A stretch of 64,000 bases of DNA from Alteromonas macleodii ATCC 27126 (lineage in GTDB: Bacteria > Pseudomonadota > Gammaproteobacteria > Enterobacterales > Alteromonadaceae). The stretch lies in the NCBI RefSeq assembly GCF_000172635.2, contig NC_018632.1:4588001-4652000 (forward strand), given 5' to 3'. The position numbers and the translations under genes were made by a program. Positions 56,429 to 62,673 of this stretch are shown piece by piece (positions within the stretch are counted from its first letter, which is position 1; every line of letters begins with the position of its first letter). Below the pieces are notes generated by a model, which did no database searches, had not been told where the DNA came from, and was given only the letters and a program-made list of their open reading frames with translations.

Positions 56429-58330
56429 TTACGCACTGATTTTCTCTTGCTTGCGCAACATGCCGTGTTTTTTAAGGTAAACCAGCAGTAAAGAGATGGC
56501 CGCCGGGGTAATGCCCGAAATACGCGATGCTTTACCGATTGTTTCCGGTCTGGCTTCGGTTAACTTGGCTACAACCTCGTTCGACAAGCCGGAAATCTTG
56601 CTGAAGTCCATATCAACCGGCAACAGGGTGTTTTCGTGTCGCTGCGTTTTCGCGATTTCATCCATTTGACGGGCAATGTAGCCAGCGTACTTAATTTGAA
56701 TTTCCACTTGCTCTGCAGCAACCGGATCTTCAAGACCTGGGCCAACACTTTCAATTTCCATTAACTGACCGTAAGTCATTTCAGGTCGACGGATCAGTTC
56801 TTCAAGAGAATGTTCACGACTCACCGGATTTTTCAGCATGGTATTGAGTTCCGGCGTTGCCGCGTGATCAGGGTGGATCCACTGACCGCGTAGACGCTGC
56901 AGCTCACTTTCTACCGCTTCCATCTTGTCGTTAAATTTCGCCCAGCGCGCATCATCAACAAGACCAATCTCTCGGCCCATCGCGGTTAAACGGCTATCGG
57001 CATTGTCTTCACGAAGCAGTAGTCTGTATTCTGCACGGCTAGTGAACATGCGGTACGGCTCTTTCGTACCCATGGTGGCTAAGTCGTCGATAAGTACGCC
57101 CATGTATGCTTGGTCGCGGCGTAAAATCATCGGGTCTTTTTCTTGAACTTGTAGCGCTGCGTTTGCGCCTGCTACTAACCCTTGCGCACCCGCTTCTTCA
57201 TAGCCAGTAGTACCGTTAATTTGGCCAGCAAAGAACAAACCTCGAATAAACTTCGTTTCCAGTGTTTGTTTCAGATCGCGTGGATCAAAGAAATCGTATT
57301 CAATTGCATAACCCGGACGAACAATGTGCGCATTTTCAAAACCTTTGATCGAGCGGACAAGGTTCATCTGTACGTCAAATGGCAAACTGGTTGAAATACC
57401 ATTTGGATAAACTTCAATGCTGTTTAAACCTTCTGGCTCAACAAAAATTTGATGCGATGTCTTATCTGCAAAACGGGTGATCTTATCTTCGATACTTGGG
57501 CAATAGCGCGGTCCGATACCTTCGATAACCCCTGTAAACATGGGTGAGCGATCTAATCCCCCGCGAATGATATCGTGGGTTTTTTCGTTAGTGTGGGTGA
57601 TATAGCACGGGATCTGTGTAGGGTGCATAGTTCTATCACCCATGAACGAAAATACCGGCGTAGGATTGTCACCAGGTTGAGGCTGCATTACAGAAAAATC
57701 TAACGAGCGAGCATCAAGTCTTGCTGGTGTCCCAGTTTTTAAACGGTCAACACGAAACGGAAGGGCACGTAGTCTATCTGCAAGTGCGATAGACGGTGGA
57801 TCGCCGGCACGACCGCCGCGATAGTTTTCAAGGCCAATGTGAATGGTTCCGCCAAGGAAAGTACCCACTGTCAGTACCACTGACTTGGCTTTAAACTTCA
57901 AGCCCATTTGCGTAACAACACCGCATACCTGATCGTTTTCAACAATCAGATCGTCAACGCTCTGTTGGAACAGGGTTAGGTTTTCTTGATTTTCAACAAT
58001 GTCGCGAATGGCGTTTTTGTAAAGCGTACGGTCAGCTTGCGCACGCGTTGCACGAACAGCTGGGCCTTTAGAAGAATTCAATGTTCTAAACTGAATACCG
58101 CCTTTGTCGATAGCCAGTGCCATTGCACCGCCTAACGCATCGATCTCTTTTACAAGATGACCTTTACCGATCCCACCAATTGCAGGGTTACACGACATCT
58201 GGCCTATCGTCTCAATATTGTGAGTGAGCAACAGCGTATTTGCACCCATGCGAGCAGCTGCAAGTGCCGCTTCTGTACCTGCATGTCCACCACCTACAAC
58301 GATGACATCAAATGCTTCAGCATAAAACAT
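56429..58330 (-). CDS. mnmG: tRNA uridine-5-carboxymethylaminomethylation enzyme MnmG
   Basis: MnmG (GidA) works with MnmE to modify the wobble uridine of certain tRNAs. The 633-residue protein (E. coli 629) has the FAD motif [19 protein letters not shown] and the conserved [18 protein letters not shown] region. The C-terminal helical domain is complete. mnmG flanks oriC, a classic gammaproteobacterial arrangement, and is read away from the origin. Confidence 0.97.
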
Positions 58331-58419
58331 GGTTAAACCTCACTATTAACTTACGATAAGCCGATTAAAAACTAATTTTTCCCACGCAGAGACTGCTGAA
58401 AAAAGGGCGCGTATTTTAT

Positions 58420-58900
58420 CTGACTTATTGGATAAAGAAAATGATTAAATTTTCCTCAAAACCTGTTTTTGAAAAGGTGTGATCGAATTATAAGATCTTA
58501 AGATCTCTTTTAGATCTGTTTATTTTTACTTTTATTAGGATCATCAAGATCTGTGGGTAACCGATCAAAGCACATAAAGATCATCAAGTTACGCGATCAA
58601 TAACATTGGGAAACCCCGATCCATAACCCTATCTCAAACTTGTGTATAAATGGCCTTTTTATCCACACCCCGAATCGTTTGAAAAGTTATTCTTTTTTCG
58701 ATCAAAGCTTATGCACAGTGGTTTGTAGGATCCTATCCACAGGGGTGATCAAGATGTGATCCAACTGGGGATAAAATGTTTGCTATTTATGTATCGCGAT
58801 CAAAAGATCGTGTAGATACGTGCGTTATAGCGTGATCACATTGTGGAGGAGATCTTTTCCAAAAGCTGTGATTAGATCGCCCGATCGCATTTATCAACAC
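58420..58900. other. oriC: Candidate chromosomal replication origin oriC
   Basis: DnaA-box-like 9-mers (TTATNCACA and one-mismatch forms) lie at 58552 (minus), 58641 (minus, TTATACACA), 58659 (plus, perfect TTATCCACA), 58709 (plus, TTATGCACA), 58733 (plus), 58766 (minus) and 58891 (plus). Twenty GATC sites fall between 58481 and 58887, against about 1.6 expected by chance, which fits Dam/SeqA control. The stretch 58430-58545 next to mnmG is very AT-rich and has a 13-mer-like GATCTGTTTATTT repeat, suggesting the unwinding element. The position between mnmG and mioC matches oriC in Vibrio and E. coli. All of this is sequence evidence; function is inferred. Confidence 0.9.
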
Positions 58901-59226
58901 CTTCAAAAAAACTGCACGTTTTTATGAACGACAAGATTATTTTTTCAAAACAGCCCATTTTTCAGGAGAAAAACATAGGAGCTGACCAAAATTCAGTCAC
59001 TTTTATAAGGTAGAAGTGGGTCTGAAAGAATGGTTATTTGTTTAACTGAAGGAGATCGTTGAGTGTATCTATGAATTGAAACCGTATCGTTTTGGTAAAA
59101 AGCGGGATCAACAGACTAAGTGATTCGCTATTACTTAGCACAACAGGAACATGCAATAAGGTTTAATGAAGGAAAAGACCTAGCAGAGTAAGGGCTAGGT
59201 TTCGAGAGAGGGGAAACCAGGTGCTA
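58901..59226 (-). other. Spacer between oriC and the DnaC-like gene
   Basis: This stretch right of oriC contains no credible gene. It is T-rich at 58917-58960, carries no further GATC cluster, and ends with two hairpins listed separately. Confidence 0.4.
59178..59200 (-). terminator. Hairpin facing the origin (distal)
   Basis: ACCTAGC (59178-59184) pairs with GCTAGGT (59194-59200) with a nine-base loop. The minus strand continues CTTTTCC. It would stop transcripts coming from the DnaC-like gene toward oriC. Confidence 0.5.
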
Positions 59227-59241
59227 TTAACGCACCTGGTT
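59215..59241 (-). terminator. Hairpin spanning the DnaC-like stop codon (proximal)
   Basis: AACCAGGTGC (59215-59224) and GCACCTGGTT (59232-59241) form a perfect ten-pair stem whose seven-base loop contains the stop codon. Only a short pyrimidine tract follows on the minus strand, so its strength is uncertain. Confidence 0.5.
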
Positions 59242-60054
59242 GGGTTGATAGCGTGGCTGTGAAACAGAGCCTTGCATGTCTTCTTGTTCAATGGTTAAGC
59301 CTTCACGGCGGCTCGGGCCTTGAAACCTAACCTTGTAAGTGTCGTACTCTTTAATCGACTCAAAACAATAGGGGCCAAGGGCATTTTCAAGTTCGGCTAA
59401 ATTGTGATTGGTGATCAAAATACAGTTTTTCTTGTTTACTAAGCGCTGTCTTAGCAGGTTACCAAACCAGCTTTGCGCATTCTTCTTTAACACACTTTCG
59501 TTTACACACACTTCATCAAGAATAAGCAGATCGACGTCTAGCAGTTCCTGATTGATCTCCCTAAAGCGCTGTCCTGCGTTGTCTGAAGCCCCAAAATCAA
59601 ACGAGAAATTGCGCATTTCAAGCAGTGTAGACAGTTGACGATAAAGCACTGATATTTCGTACTGCTCTATAAGTTGATGGGCAATAGCACCGGCAATATG
59701 TGATTTACCACGACCGTAATCGCCGTAAAACAGCATCATATGCGAGCCGCTTTGACGCCATGCAGGGTCGTCATGGGCAGCAATAAAAGACTGAGCTATC
59801 GATACGGCTTCAATCACATCGTCACTGTCTTCAACTAAGTTGGCGAAGGTCCATTTAGGATTCAGATCAGAACGGCCATGAATAGCCTCTACACGCGCTT
59901 TTTTACTACGCTGCTGTAGTTGTGATACTTCTTCGTTCGCTTTCGCCTCGTACTGCTTACGCAGCGTTTTATAGTCGATGTATTCACGATTGGGATCGAC
60001 GTCTTTGTTGAGCGCTCTCGCTAAATTAGCAATTTTGTCGGTTATACGATCCAT
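59227..60054 (-). CDS. DnaC-like AAA+ helicase-loader protein
   Basis: A 275-residue DnaC/IstB-type AAA+ ATPase. Walker A GDYGRGKS is at residues 111-118, Walker B LLILDE at 176-181, and a sensor-1 Asn lies in ILITNHN. The N-terminal 60 residues are charged and helical, as in loaders that bind DnaB, and RSDLNPKWTFANL precedes the ATPase core as in DnaC. Length exceeds E. coli DnaC (245). It is seven bases after the DnaT-like gene, so the two form an operon. A position next to oriC suggests that it loads the replicative helicase there; this is inferred, and a transposition-related role is unlikely because no transposase is present. Confidence 0.8.
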   Translation of the reverse strand: MDRITDKIANLARALNKDVDPNREYIDYKTLRKQYEAKANEEVSQLQQRSKKARVEAIHGRSDLNPKWTFANLVEDSDDVIEAVSIAQSFIAAHDDPAWRQSGSHMMLFYGDYGRGKSHIAGAIAHQLIEQYEISVLYRQLSTLLEMRNFSFDFGASDNAGQRFREINQELLDVDLLILDEVCVNESVLKKNAQSWFGNLLRQRLVNKKNCILITNHNLAELENALGPYCFESIKEYDTYKVRFQGPSRREGLTIEQEDMQGSVSQPRYQPNQVR

Positions 60055-60060
60055 AACGAA

Positions 60061-60729
60061 TTAACTCTTCTTAGTTGCGGCATACTTTTCCACCAGCTTT
60101 CTAGCATTATCATCTGCTTCTATGCCGGCTGCAACTTTCACTTGTTGTGTTCCCACCACTTTTGTTGGGGCGTAGCCTGAAGCGAGACGCTTTCGCTTGA
60201 TATTGTTGGCAAACTTTTGTGTCCATTGAAATTCGCTAAACACCGAACTTGGCCTTCCCAACCAATAAGCAATGAATTCACCCACTTCGTTGTCATCAAA
60301 TGTTTTATCGATAATACCAAGTAGCGAGGCCATTTCTTCAAACAACGCCTTGTTGGGCGTCCAATTAGGGGTCATGGCGCTATGACGGGAATGTAGTTGG
60401 TCGAAGTCTGACTGCGGCTCGCTTAGAAGCGGAAGAAGTAGGGTTTTCCCGTTGATTGTATGCTCAAGATCAAGTTCAAGGGGCAGGGCAACCAAACCCA
60501 CTTGTTCAAGCTGCTTCACCAAGCTATTGATTTGACGACCGCGTTGGTAAGGCTCGTCTTTGCTGTCGCCGTTTAGCAAATTCAATAATTGCTTATAATC
60601 AATAGGTGCCGACGATGTCGTTGCCGAATTTGCACCTGTTCGAAGCCCAAGTAAATACAGTACCCGGCAATCGTTAGAAAGGGGAGATTGCAACGCCGCC
60701 AGTTCAGCTTGGGTAAGGTTGCTGTTCAT
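60061..60729 (-). CDS. DnaT-like primosomal protein
   Basis: A 222-residue protein. The C-terminal part (about residues 119-180) matches the DnaT single-strand-DNA-binding region: a WTPNKALFEEMASLLGI segment, then EFIAYWLGRP and FQWTQKFANNIKRKR. The N-terminal part looks like a small helical (winged-helix-like) domain. DnaT helps DnaC place DnaB during PriA-dependent restart. Here it is directly upstream of the DnaC-like gene, the same gene order as E. coli dnaT-dnaC, but beside oriC. The C-terminal tail of about 40 residues is variable. Confidence 0.75.
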   Translation of the reverse strand: MNSNLTQAELAALQSPLSNDCRVLYLLGLRTGANSATTSSAPIDYKQLLNLLNGDSKDEPYQRGRQINSLVKQLEQVGLVALPLELDLEHTINGKTLLLPLLSEPQSDFDQLHSRHSAMTPNWTPNKALFEEMASLLGIIDKTFDDNEVGEFIAYWLGRPSSVFSEFQWTQKFANNIKRKRLASGYAPTKVVGTQQVKVAAGIEADDNARKLVEKYAATKKS

Positions 60730-61284: not shown

Positions 61285-62673
61285 CTATTTGCCGATACAG
61301 AACGATGAAAAAATCTTACCAAGTAGATCGTCTGACGTGAATTCACCGGTTATCTCACATAGTGCCTGGTGAGCCAAGCGCAATTCTTCAGCAAGCAACT
61401 CACCCGCCATAGCATCATGCAGTTGTTGTTCGCCAGTGCTTACATAACTGTAGGCTTGGTCGAGTGCATCTATGTGTCGTCTGCGCGCAATAAATTGACC
61501 TTCAGTTGTAGTATCGAAGCCCATGGTTTTGGCCAGATGTGCTTTTAGCGTGTCGACGCCGCTACCTTCTTTGGCTGATAGATTGATAACTGAGATATCA
61601 CCTTGCTCGGTGGCAACTGTGCTTTGTCCAATATCTAAGGTACTAAGGTCGGCCTTGTTGCGAACTACGGTAACGGGGATGCCTTGTGGCAATCGGGCCA
61701 TAAATTCTGGCCATATTTCATAAGGGTCGATAACAGCAGTTGCGGTAGAGTCTACAACGAATAATACGTGGTCAGCTTCATTGATAGCTTGCCACGCGCG
61801 CTCAATACCAATTTGTTCCACTTTATCTGGGCTTTCTCGAAGTCCTGCTGTGTCGATAATGTGCACCGGCATACCATCAATGTGAATATGCTCTTTAAGC
61901 ACGTCTCGTGTGGTACCGGCTATATCGGTAACAATGGCGCTATCTCGTCCTGCCAGGGCGTTTAATAAGCTCGATTTACCGGCGTTAGGTCGCCCCGCAA
62001 TCACCACCTGCATACCTTCGCGCAACAAGGTGCCTTGTTTAGCCTGTTCGCGCACTTTGGTTAAGCTTTGCATAATTGCGCTTAAGTCACCTGATACTTT
62101 CCCATCAGATAAGAAATCAATTTCTTCTTCAGGAAAATCGATGGCCGCCTCTACGTACATACGAAGATGCACGATTTGGTCAGATAGCGTTTGAATTTGT
62201 GTAGAAAACTCACCCTGTAGCGAGCGCAGCGCACTTTTTGCTGCCTGTTTAGAACTTGCATCAATCAAGTCGGCAATCGCCTCTGCTTGCGCAAGGTCTA
62301 ATTTATCATTTAAAAAGGCTTGTTCACTGAATTCACCTGGATTGGCAAGCCGGGCATCGCCCGTTGCAAGCACGGCATCAATCAGCATGTCCATGACAAC
62401 TTGACCGCCATGGCCCTGCAGTTCAAGTACATCTTCACCGGTAAATGAGTTAGGTCCTTTAAAAAACAGTGCTATGCCCTGGTCTATTACGCTGTTGTTA
62501 GCATCAACAAACGGCGTATAGGTCGCAAGACGTGGTGTTAGTGCGCTTGGTACTAAAGCCTCTGCGATGGCTTTAGCCTTAGGACCTGAAACACGTACTA
62601 TACCTACGCCGCCACGACCGGGCGCTGTCGCTTGTGCGGTAATAGTGTCGGTAGAAAGGGTAAGTGATTCCAT
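61285..62673 (-). CDS. mnmE: tRNA modification GTPase MnmE
   Basis: MnmE partners MnmG in wobble-uridine modification. It has the N-terminal folate-binding domain ([21 protein letters not shown]), a central GTPase domain with G1 GRPNAGKSS, the DIAGTTRD switch, DTAGL and NKAD, and the terminal FCIGK motif with the essential Cys. The length is 462 residues (E. coli 454). It begins two bases after the yajQ stop. Confidence 0.97.

Follow-up and report, generated by a model that had tools for sequence, protein, structure and literature searches.

Alteromonas macleodii ATCC 27126 carries a dnaT-like and a dnaC-like gene side by side next to its predicted replication origin (oriC), and we consider it probable that this dnaT-dnaC pair is the cell's module for loading the replicative helicase, that it entered only once, and that it is the same module as the one found in Aeromonadales. 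The pair lies near the right end of the window, by which we mean the whole 64,000-nucleotide stretch analyzed here (contig positions 4588001-4652000, at the end of a single-contig genome of 4,653,851 bp).

To assign the DnaC-like protein, we compared it with several family collections. Its best Pfam match was IstB_IS21 (31.8 bits, cut-off 24.1), it matched the PHROG family phrog_50, 'DnaC-like helicase loader', at 4.6e-31, and its best sequence match in the PDB was E. coli DnaC (6qel, 3.7e-8). The hidden Markov model alignment spans E. coli DnaC residues 1-242, and candidate helicase-binding helices are predicted at residues 4-14 and 28-59 (block pLDDT, a model confidence score, 63-84). The DnaT-like protein scored 71.7 bits against PF17948 (gathering cut-off 25) and matched DnaT in the PDB (9zbt, 1.6e-7). 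It consists of an N-terminal winged helix (residues ∼3-105) and the C-terminal PF17948 domain, which binds single-stranded DNA (ssDNA; residues ∼112-185). Both identities put forward by the original prediction were thereby borne out at the level of protein domains. Genome-wide, we found a single protein of this DnaC kind and a single PF17948 match. Neither protein passed the equivalog model for its enterobacterial counterpart, with 56.4 bits against a cut-off of 357 for DnaC (NCBIfam PRK07952) and 38.1 against 201 for DnaT (PRK02854), and an hhalign comparison with enterobacterial DnaT gave an alignment confined to the C-terminal domain, leaving the N-terminal oligomerisation domain of the enterobacterial protein unmatched. 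The winged helix makes a duplex-binding DnaT possible. According to a proposal in passages of PMC13377028, the layouts of DnaT and DnaA run parallel, as do the ways in which they recruit the helicase.

The original prediction had set the pair against DciA, the loader of many gammaproteobacteria, and no DciA was found in the same genome, where a Pfam search gave no match. Of the 157 family genomes surveyed, 58 carried this DnaC (E < 1e-100), 91 carried DciA (85 of them above the Pfam cut-off), none carried both and eight carried neither, these being related genomes and the counts not independent. Six further family genomes with weak DnaC matches all carry DciA. Using 18 relatives, we then built a DciA profile, which matched none of the 58 DnaC-bearing genomes, three of the eight with neither loader and all four positive controls. 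An MnmG tree of 69 rows placed all 29 rows from DnaC-bearing genomes in one clade (support 100/99), nested among DciA-bearing genomes. At the level of the genome, this DnaC has replaced dciA. The replacement in this clade is already known from Brezellec et al. 2016 (PMC5109545), passages of which describe how a restricted clade of Alteromonadales domesticated a dna[CI] gene and lost dciA upon its advent, in a data set that includes A. macleodii. Across 295 genomes of the order, we counted 71 with the DnaT domain, 192 with DciA, one with both (G292) and 33 with neither. A genome of another family, G299, lies outside the 192 with a DciA match and encodes a DnaC with an arginine finger (G299:C1:1201-1929, locus L176) that groups with enterobacterial DnaC (96/87), possibly a further replacement.

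The right end of the window holds, all on the minus strand, mnmE, mioC, the dnaT-like gene, the dnaC-like gene, an 896-bp gap and mnmG, with the following features:

56429..58330, minus strand: mnmG (gidA), on the far side of oriC
58331..59226, no strand: oriC as judged by its marks, with 22 GATC, 37% GC and a cluster of DnaA boxes at 58552-58891
59150..59226, minus strand: hairpin with a U-rich tail just past the dnaC stop, a likely terminator
59227..60054, minus strand: dnaC-like gene, 275 amino acids, coordinates including the stop
60061..60729, minus strand: dnaT-like gene, 222 amino acids
60757..61194, minus strand: mioC (flavodoxin), the upstream gene of the mioC-dnaT-dnaC run
61285..62673, minus strand: mnmE, the open reading frame (ORF) beyond mioC

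Analysis of the gap between dnaC and mnmG (37% GC) showed 22 GATC sites against a window mean of 2.27 per 900 bp, and this maximum was reached only by stretches that overlap the gap. It also contains one perfect DnaA box, TTATCCACA, at 58659 together with six one-mismatch boxes, all within 58552-58891. An oriC of the E. coli type is recognized by clustered DnaA boxes, an excess of GATC and an adjoining mnmG, and all three are present at 58331-59226, the predicted oriC. The identity of mioC was secured by an NCBIfam equivalog (169.2 bits, cut-off 158), and the placement of the pair between mioC and oriC, as originally proposed, agrees with the ORFs and the marks of the origin. The mioC-dnaT-dnaC run is read towards oriC. 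The ORF at genome base 410, which we take to be dnaA from reading it without a family scan, starts ∼5.5 kb beyond dnaT provided that the single contig is circular, which would bring oriC, the pair and the dnaA start within ∼8 kb. The hairpin with its U-rich tail lies directly 3′ of dnaC (z = -3.43) and was not listed by a simple terminator scan. Terminator-like signals within 150 bp past dnaC were found in 35 of 80 related loci versus 29 of 400 mononucleotide shuffles, and the hairpin probably ends the dnaT-dnaC transcript ahead of oriC.

Comparison of these 80 loci, the best of 113 relatives found when one genome was scanned for each species, showed that the arrangement is widely kept. The order and strand of mioC, dnaT and dnaC were the same in 80/80, mnmG followed downstream in 77/80, and the median distance from dnaC to mnmG was 893 bp. 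Two of the three loci lacking a downstream mnmG stop at contig ends (L047 and L118), and in the third, L097, ∼10 kb or more of other genes follow. The densest GATC stretch of the locus fell between dnaC and mnmG in 67 loci and elsewhere in 13. In L085 and L091, 5.3 and 5.7 kb of other genes separate dnaC from mnmG with the pair still beside mioC; two of L085, L091 and L097 are from Aliiglaciecola lipolytica. For comparison, we used the oriC regions (7.3-9.5 kb each) of 40 other genomes, comprising 26 family members with DciA, eight family members in which Pfam and DnaC searches gave neither loader, five Aeromonadaceae and one other, and found no dnaT or dnaC match in any of these regions. We located mioC in 35 of them, and in 34 the gap from mioC to mnmG measured 406-637 bp with no ORF of at least 90 amino acids in between. 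The exception, L230, has a 676-amino acid ORF between mioC and mnmG, which are 2.8 kb apart. Because 34 of 35 other regions have mioC and mnmG directly adjacent, the insertion of the pair between mioC and oriC is a derived state.

To learn how the ATPase site compares with that of known loaders, we aligned 133 proteins, namely 80 from Alteromonadaceae, 19 from Aeromonadaceae, 13 from Succinivibrionaceae and 21 others (six enterobacterial, 12 phage and three remaining). In the available passages of PMC8213410, E. coli DnaC K112, E170, N203 and R237 are the Walker A, Walker B, sensor I and sensor II residues. R220 is the arginine finger, whose substitution in R220D abolishes ATPase activity, with loading remaining close to that achieved by the helicase-binding domain on its own. 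R216 is the arginine coupler, called invariant in DnaC/I, which couples hydrolysis to ssDNA, and R216A burns ATP without ssDNA. The A. macleodii protein has Walker A K117, Walker B E181, sensor I N216 and sensor II R250, a core of the AAA+ fold that is complete in 80/80 Alteromonadaceae. Over the three families, the Walker A Lys was present in 112/112 and the sensor II Arg in 111/112; the Walker B Glu and sensor I Asn were found in all 99 Alteromonadaceae and Aeromonadaceae proteins but in 5/13 from Succinivibrionaceae.

The positions of E. coli R216 and R220, by contrast, are occupied by Y229 and S233. The finger Arg was present in 0/112 clade members versus 19/21 others (6/6 enterobacterial, 10/12 phage, 3/3 remaining), being replaced by Ser in 80/80 Alteromonadaceae and 13/13 Succinivibrionaceae and by Ala in 19/19 Aeromonadaceae. 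The coupler Arg was likewise present in 0/112 versus 20/21, with Tyr in 80/80 Alteromonadaceae. Conversely, R202 was found in 112/112 clade members versus 0/21 others, of which 20 have Asp or Asn there, and R249 in 109/112 versus 0/21. In the clade, substitutions also affect the tetrad through which E. coli DnaC binds ssDNA. Because the finger and coupler positions hold Ser and Tyr in 80/80, the Alteromonas-type DnaC is by its sequence a separate DnaC-like subfamily, outside DnaC proper. R202 or R249 may be a relocated finger, or loading may proceed without trans-activated hydrolysis.

The same changed residues connect Alteromonas with Aeromonadales. Among the 295 genomes of the order, PF17948 occurred in only four family groups, of which one is the family of A. 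macleodii itself (14 genomes) and the others are enterobacterial, as judged by protein likeness, and Succinivibrionaceae and Aeromonadaceae, as judged by the names of close proteins. In one alignment, Alteromonas DnaC is 36-38% identical to that of Aeromonadaceae and 21-22% to the enterobacterial protein; over all comparisons, identity to the latter is 19-22%. In DnaC trees of 61, 54 and 60 rows, the latter two with long rows left out, one branch separated Alteromonadaceae, Aeromonadaceae and Succinivibrionaceae from enterobacterial, phage and other proteins (100/100, 100/99 and 100/99, respectively). By an approximately unbiased (AU) test, a grouping of Aeromonadales that leaves out Alteromonas could not be rejected (p 0.484 and 0.413), and the Alteromonas genes may or may not nest inside Aeromonadales. 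Alteromonas and Aeromonadaceae DnaT share a homologous N-terminal domain, with 34% identity across residues 5-200. In Aeromonadaceae, the distance of the pair from mnmG/oriC is 0.83-0.87 Mb in three genomes of a single contig each and 1.17 Mb in a fourth; the pair lies near ORFs that we presumed, from reading only, to be galU-like and response-regulator-like, and dnaT-dnaC was absent from the oriC regions of five Aeromonadaceae. These data are better explained by one shared module, either transferred between the orders or acquired twice from close sources, than by two events. The phylogeny placed the ATPase in a separate lineage common to Aeromonadales, away from the enterobacterial pair. The pair is not an enterobacterial dnaTC pair relocated to oriC: it has a different DnaT N-terminus, an altered ATPase site and this separate lineage.

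The viral relatives that we found are distant, and a phage origin of the module is an inference. No virus with R202 and without R216/R220 was found in the scans made, and the comparison of individual residues covered 12 phage DnaCs. All 10 annotated phage loci examined (L254-L256 and L274-L280) have the DnaC-like gene directly 3′ of another gene on the same strand, the two-gene layout of dnaT-dnaC; the upstream genes are annotated as replication protein O (three), DnaA-like (one), DUF4373 (one) and hypothetical (five). Public records name some relatives of both proteins 'flavodoxin' (P0001, P0228, P0249 and P0297), a label perhaps carried over from the neighboring mioC.

From the families to which the two proteins belong, the pair would bind DnaB, be essential and act at oriC. 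In the mechanism we favor, DnaA would open oriC, DnaT would coat or mark the ssDNA and help to bring in the DnaB-DnaC complex, and the DnaC-like AAA+ ATPase, which would bind DnaB via its N-terminal helices, would load DnaB at the opened origin. The pair would also serve loading at restarted forks. The module would have entered once, between mioC and oriC, in the ancestor of a clade that comprises Alteromonas, Salinimonas, Aestuariibacter, Paraglaciecola, Aliiglaciecola, Bowmanella, Lacimicrobium, Neptunicella and some Glaciecola, after which dciA would have been lost. A more far-reaching version, which we offer tentatively, is that the Alteromonas clade and Aeromonadales share a distinct initiation module, in which a DnaA-like two-domain DnaT would recruit a loader without a canonical finger, working with relocated arginines (R202, perhaps R249) or without trans-activated hydrolysis, and which came to be placed at the host oriC in the Alteromonas clade.

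Several observations weigh against the pair being the loading module of the cell. The mutual exclusion of DnaC and DciA in the family reflects one gain, and Fisher p-values overstate it. G292, the Aeromonadaceae genome noted above (loci L173 and L273), has DnaT, DnaC and a weak DciA match (3.3e-5), which, if genuine, would be an exception to the mutual exclusion of the two loaders. Five family genomes (G070, G095, G125, G139 and G144, with oriC loci L225, L226, L224, L228 and L215) gave no match to DciA by Pfam or the local profile, to the Alteromonas-type DnaC or to lambda P; therefore, the absence of DciA is no proof that this DnaC does DciA's work. These five genomes are rated 100% complete, three fall in one clade and one is a single contig; a PF01695 search returned frames the size of DnaA, in G144 an IstB-like match in two pieces, and other, weak matches. 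Lastly, losing the finger on which ATP hydrolysis by E. coli DnaC depends could mean a changed or reduced enzyme.

If another, unrecognised factor loaded DnaB at oriC, the pair could serve PriA-dependent restart only. Passages of PMC13377028 do describe E. coli DnaT as a restart protein, and the five genomes in which our searches found neither loader suggest that another one may exist. We nonetheless judge this quite improbable, as one of the two genes encodes the loader, a protein that takes part in both initiation and restart in E. coli, and the lack of any genome with both DnaC and DciA among 157 is what replacement predicts. For DciA and DnaC, passages of PMC5109545 report that depletion blocks initiation past oriC opening, leaving ssDNA at oriC without DnaB. 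An IS21-type IstB helper, or a prophage remnant near oriC by chance, is a further reading of the ATPase; it finds a basis in the best Pfam name of the protein, and a clear IstB-type assignment is among the outcomes that the original prediction had named as refuting it. No clear assignment of that kind was obtained: the protein scored 46.9 bits against a cut-off of 200 for NCBIfam IS21_help_AAA, its neighbors are mioC, dnaT and mnmG, it is present in single copy at a fixed place, and its fold is nearer to DnaC than to IstB, which makes this explanation almost certainly wrong.

Two independent captures from related phages, one in Alteromonas and one in Aeromonadales, present a stronger challenge to a single entry, and passages of PMC5109545 count Aeromonadales as a separate domestication event. 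The differing gene places (oriC versus elsewhere in Aeromonadaceae), the grouping left standing by the AU test and the similar order of phage modules all speak for two captures. On the other side are the common states that are rare or absent in other DnaCs (loss of R216/R220 and gain of R202), the single branch setting both groups apart, the homologous DnaT N-termini and the lack, in the scans and the 12 phage DnaCs compared, of any virus with these states, so that we regard two captures as rather unlikely. We also think it unlikely, if less so than the restart-only explanation, that the place at oriC was selected because it ties the dosage or transcription of the pair to initiation. Its persistence through a broad clade, the reading direction towards oriC and the proximity of dnaA are consistent with such selection. 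Against it, there was one insertion event, with no replicate and no statistics; a likely terminator stands ahead of oriC; other genes separate dnaC from mnmG in L085, L091 and L097; and the Aeromonadaceae pair is located 0.83-1.17 Mb from mnmG in four genomes.

A clade of presumably essential loaders without finger or coupler (112/112) is a natural test of how loader ATPases are wired, and a winged-helix DnaT bears on the parallel between DnaT and DnaA helicase recruitment proposed in the passages of PMC13377028. Sister genomes show oriC before and after the insertion, so that the replacement of one replication part by another can be traced, and should the shared origin be correct, there were fewer independent captures of dnaC.

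The enterobacterial dnaT-dnaC resembles the Alteromonas pair in gene order, in the C-terminal ssDNA-binding domain of DnaT and in full-length DnaC similarity; unlike it, its DnaT N-terminus is unmatched by profile comparison, it does not lie beside oriC, and relative to E. coli DnaC the Alteromonas protein has lost R216 and R220 and gained R202 and R249. DopC-DopE, which Brezellec et al. are said to have described in 2017, is reportedly a lambda O/P-derived pair that likewise replaced dciA with a two-gene, phage-type initiator/loader module, with DopE said to derive from lambda P and not from AAA+ DnaC; we found no match to the lambda P family in the A. macleodii genome. The domesticated dnaC of Brezellec et al. 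2016 (PMC5109545) is very probably the same gene as ours, while 'dnat' does not occur in the main text of that paper and the passages available do not mention the place at oriC. There is a precedent in mycobacteria for a loader gene that adjoins oriC: passages of PMC5720831 place M. smegmatis dciA in an operon next to oriC, DciA being unrelated to DnaC and its neighbors being dnaN and recF. We did not find the oriC place of the pair, its DnaT partner or the lost arginines in our searches of open-licence papers, and the place together with the DnaT partner, the module common to Aeromonadales, and the loss of finger and coupler with gain of R202 appear to be new here. Another close counterpart is the DnaT-DnaC pair of Aeromonadaceae and Succinivibrionaceae, in which the Aeromonadaceae DnaT is homologous over both domains and the DnaC has lost both arginines and gained R202. 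The Aeromonadaceae pair differs in lying away from oriC (five regions) and in having Ala at the finger position, where Alteromonadaceae and Succinivibrionaceae have Ser, and some DnaCs of the latter family also lack the Walker B Glu or the sensor I Asn.
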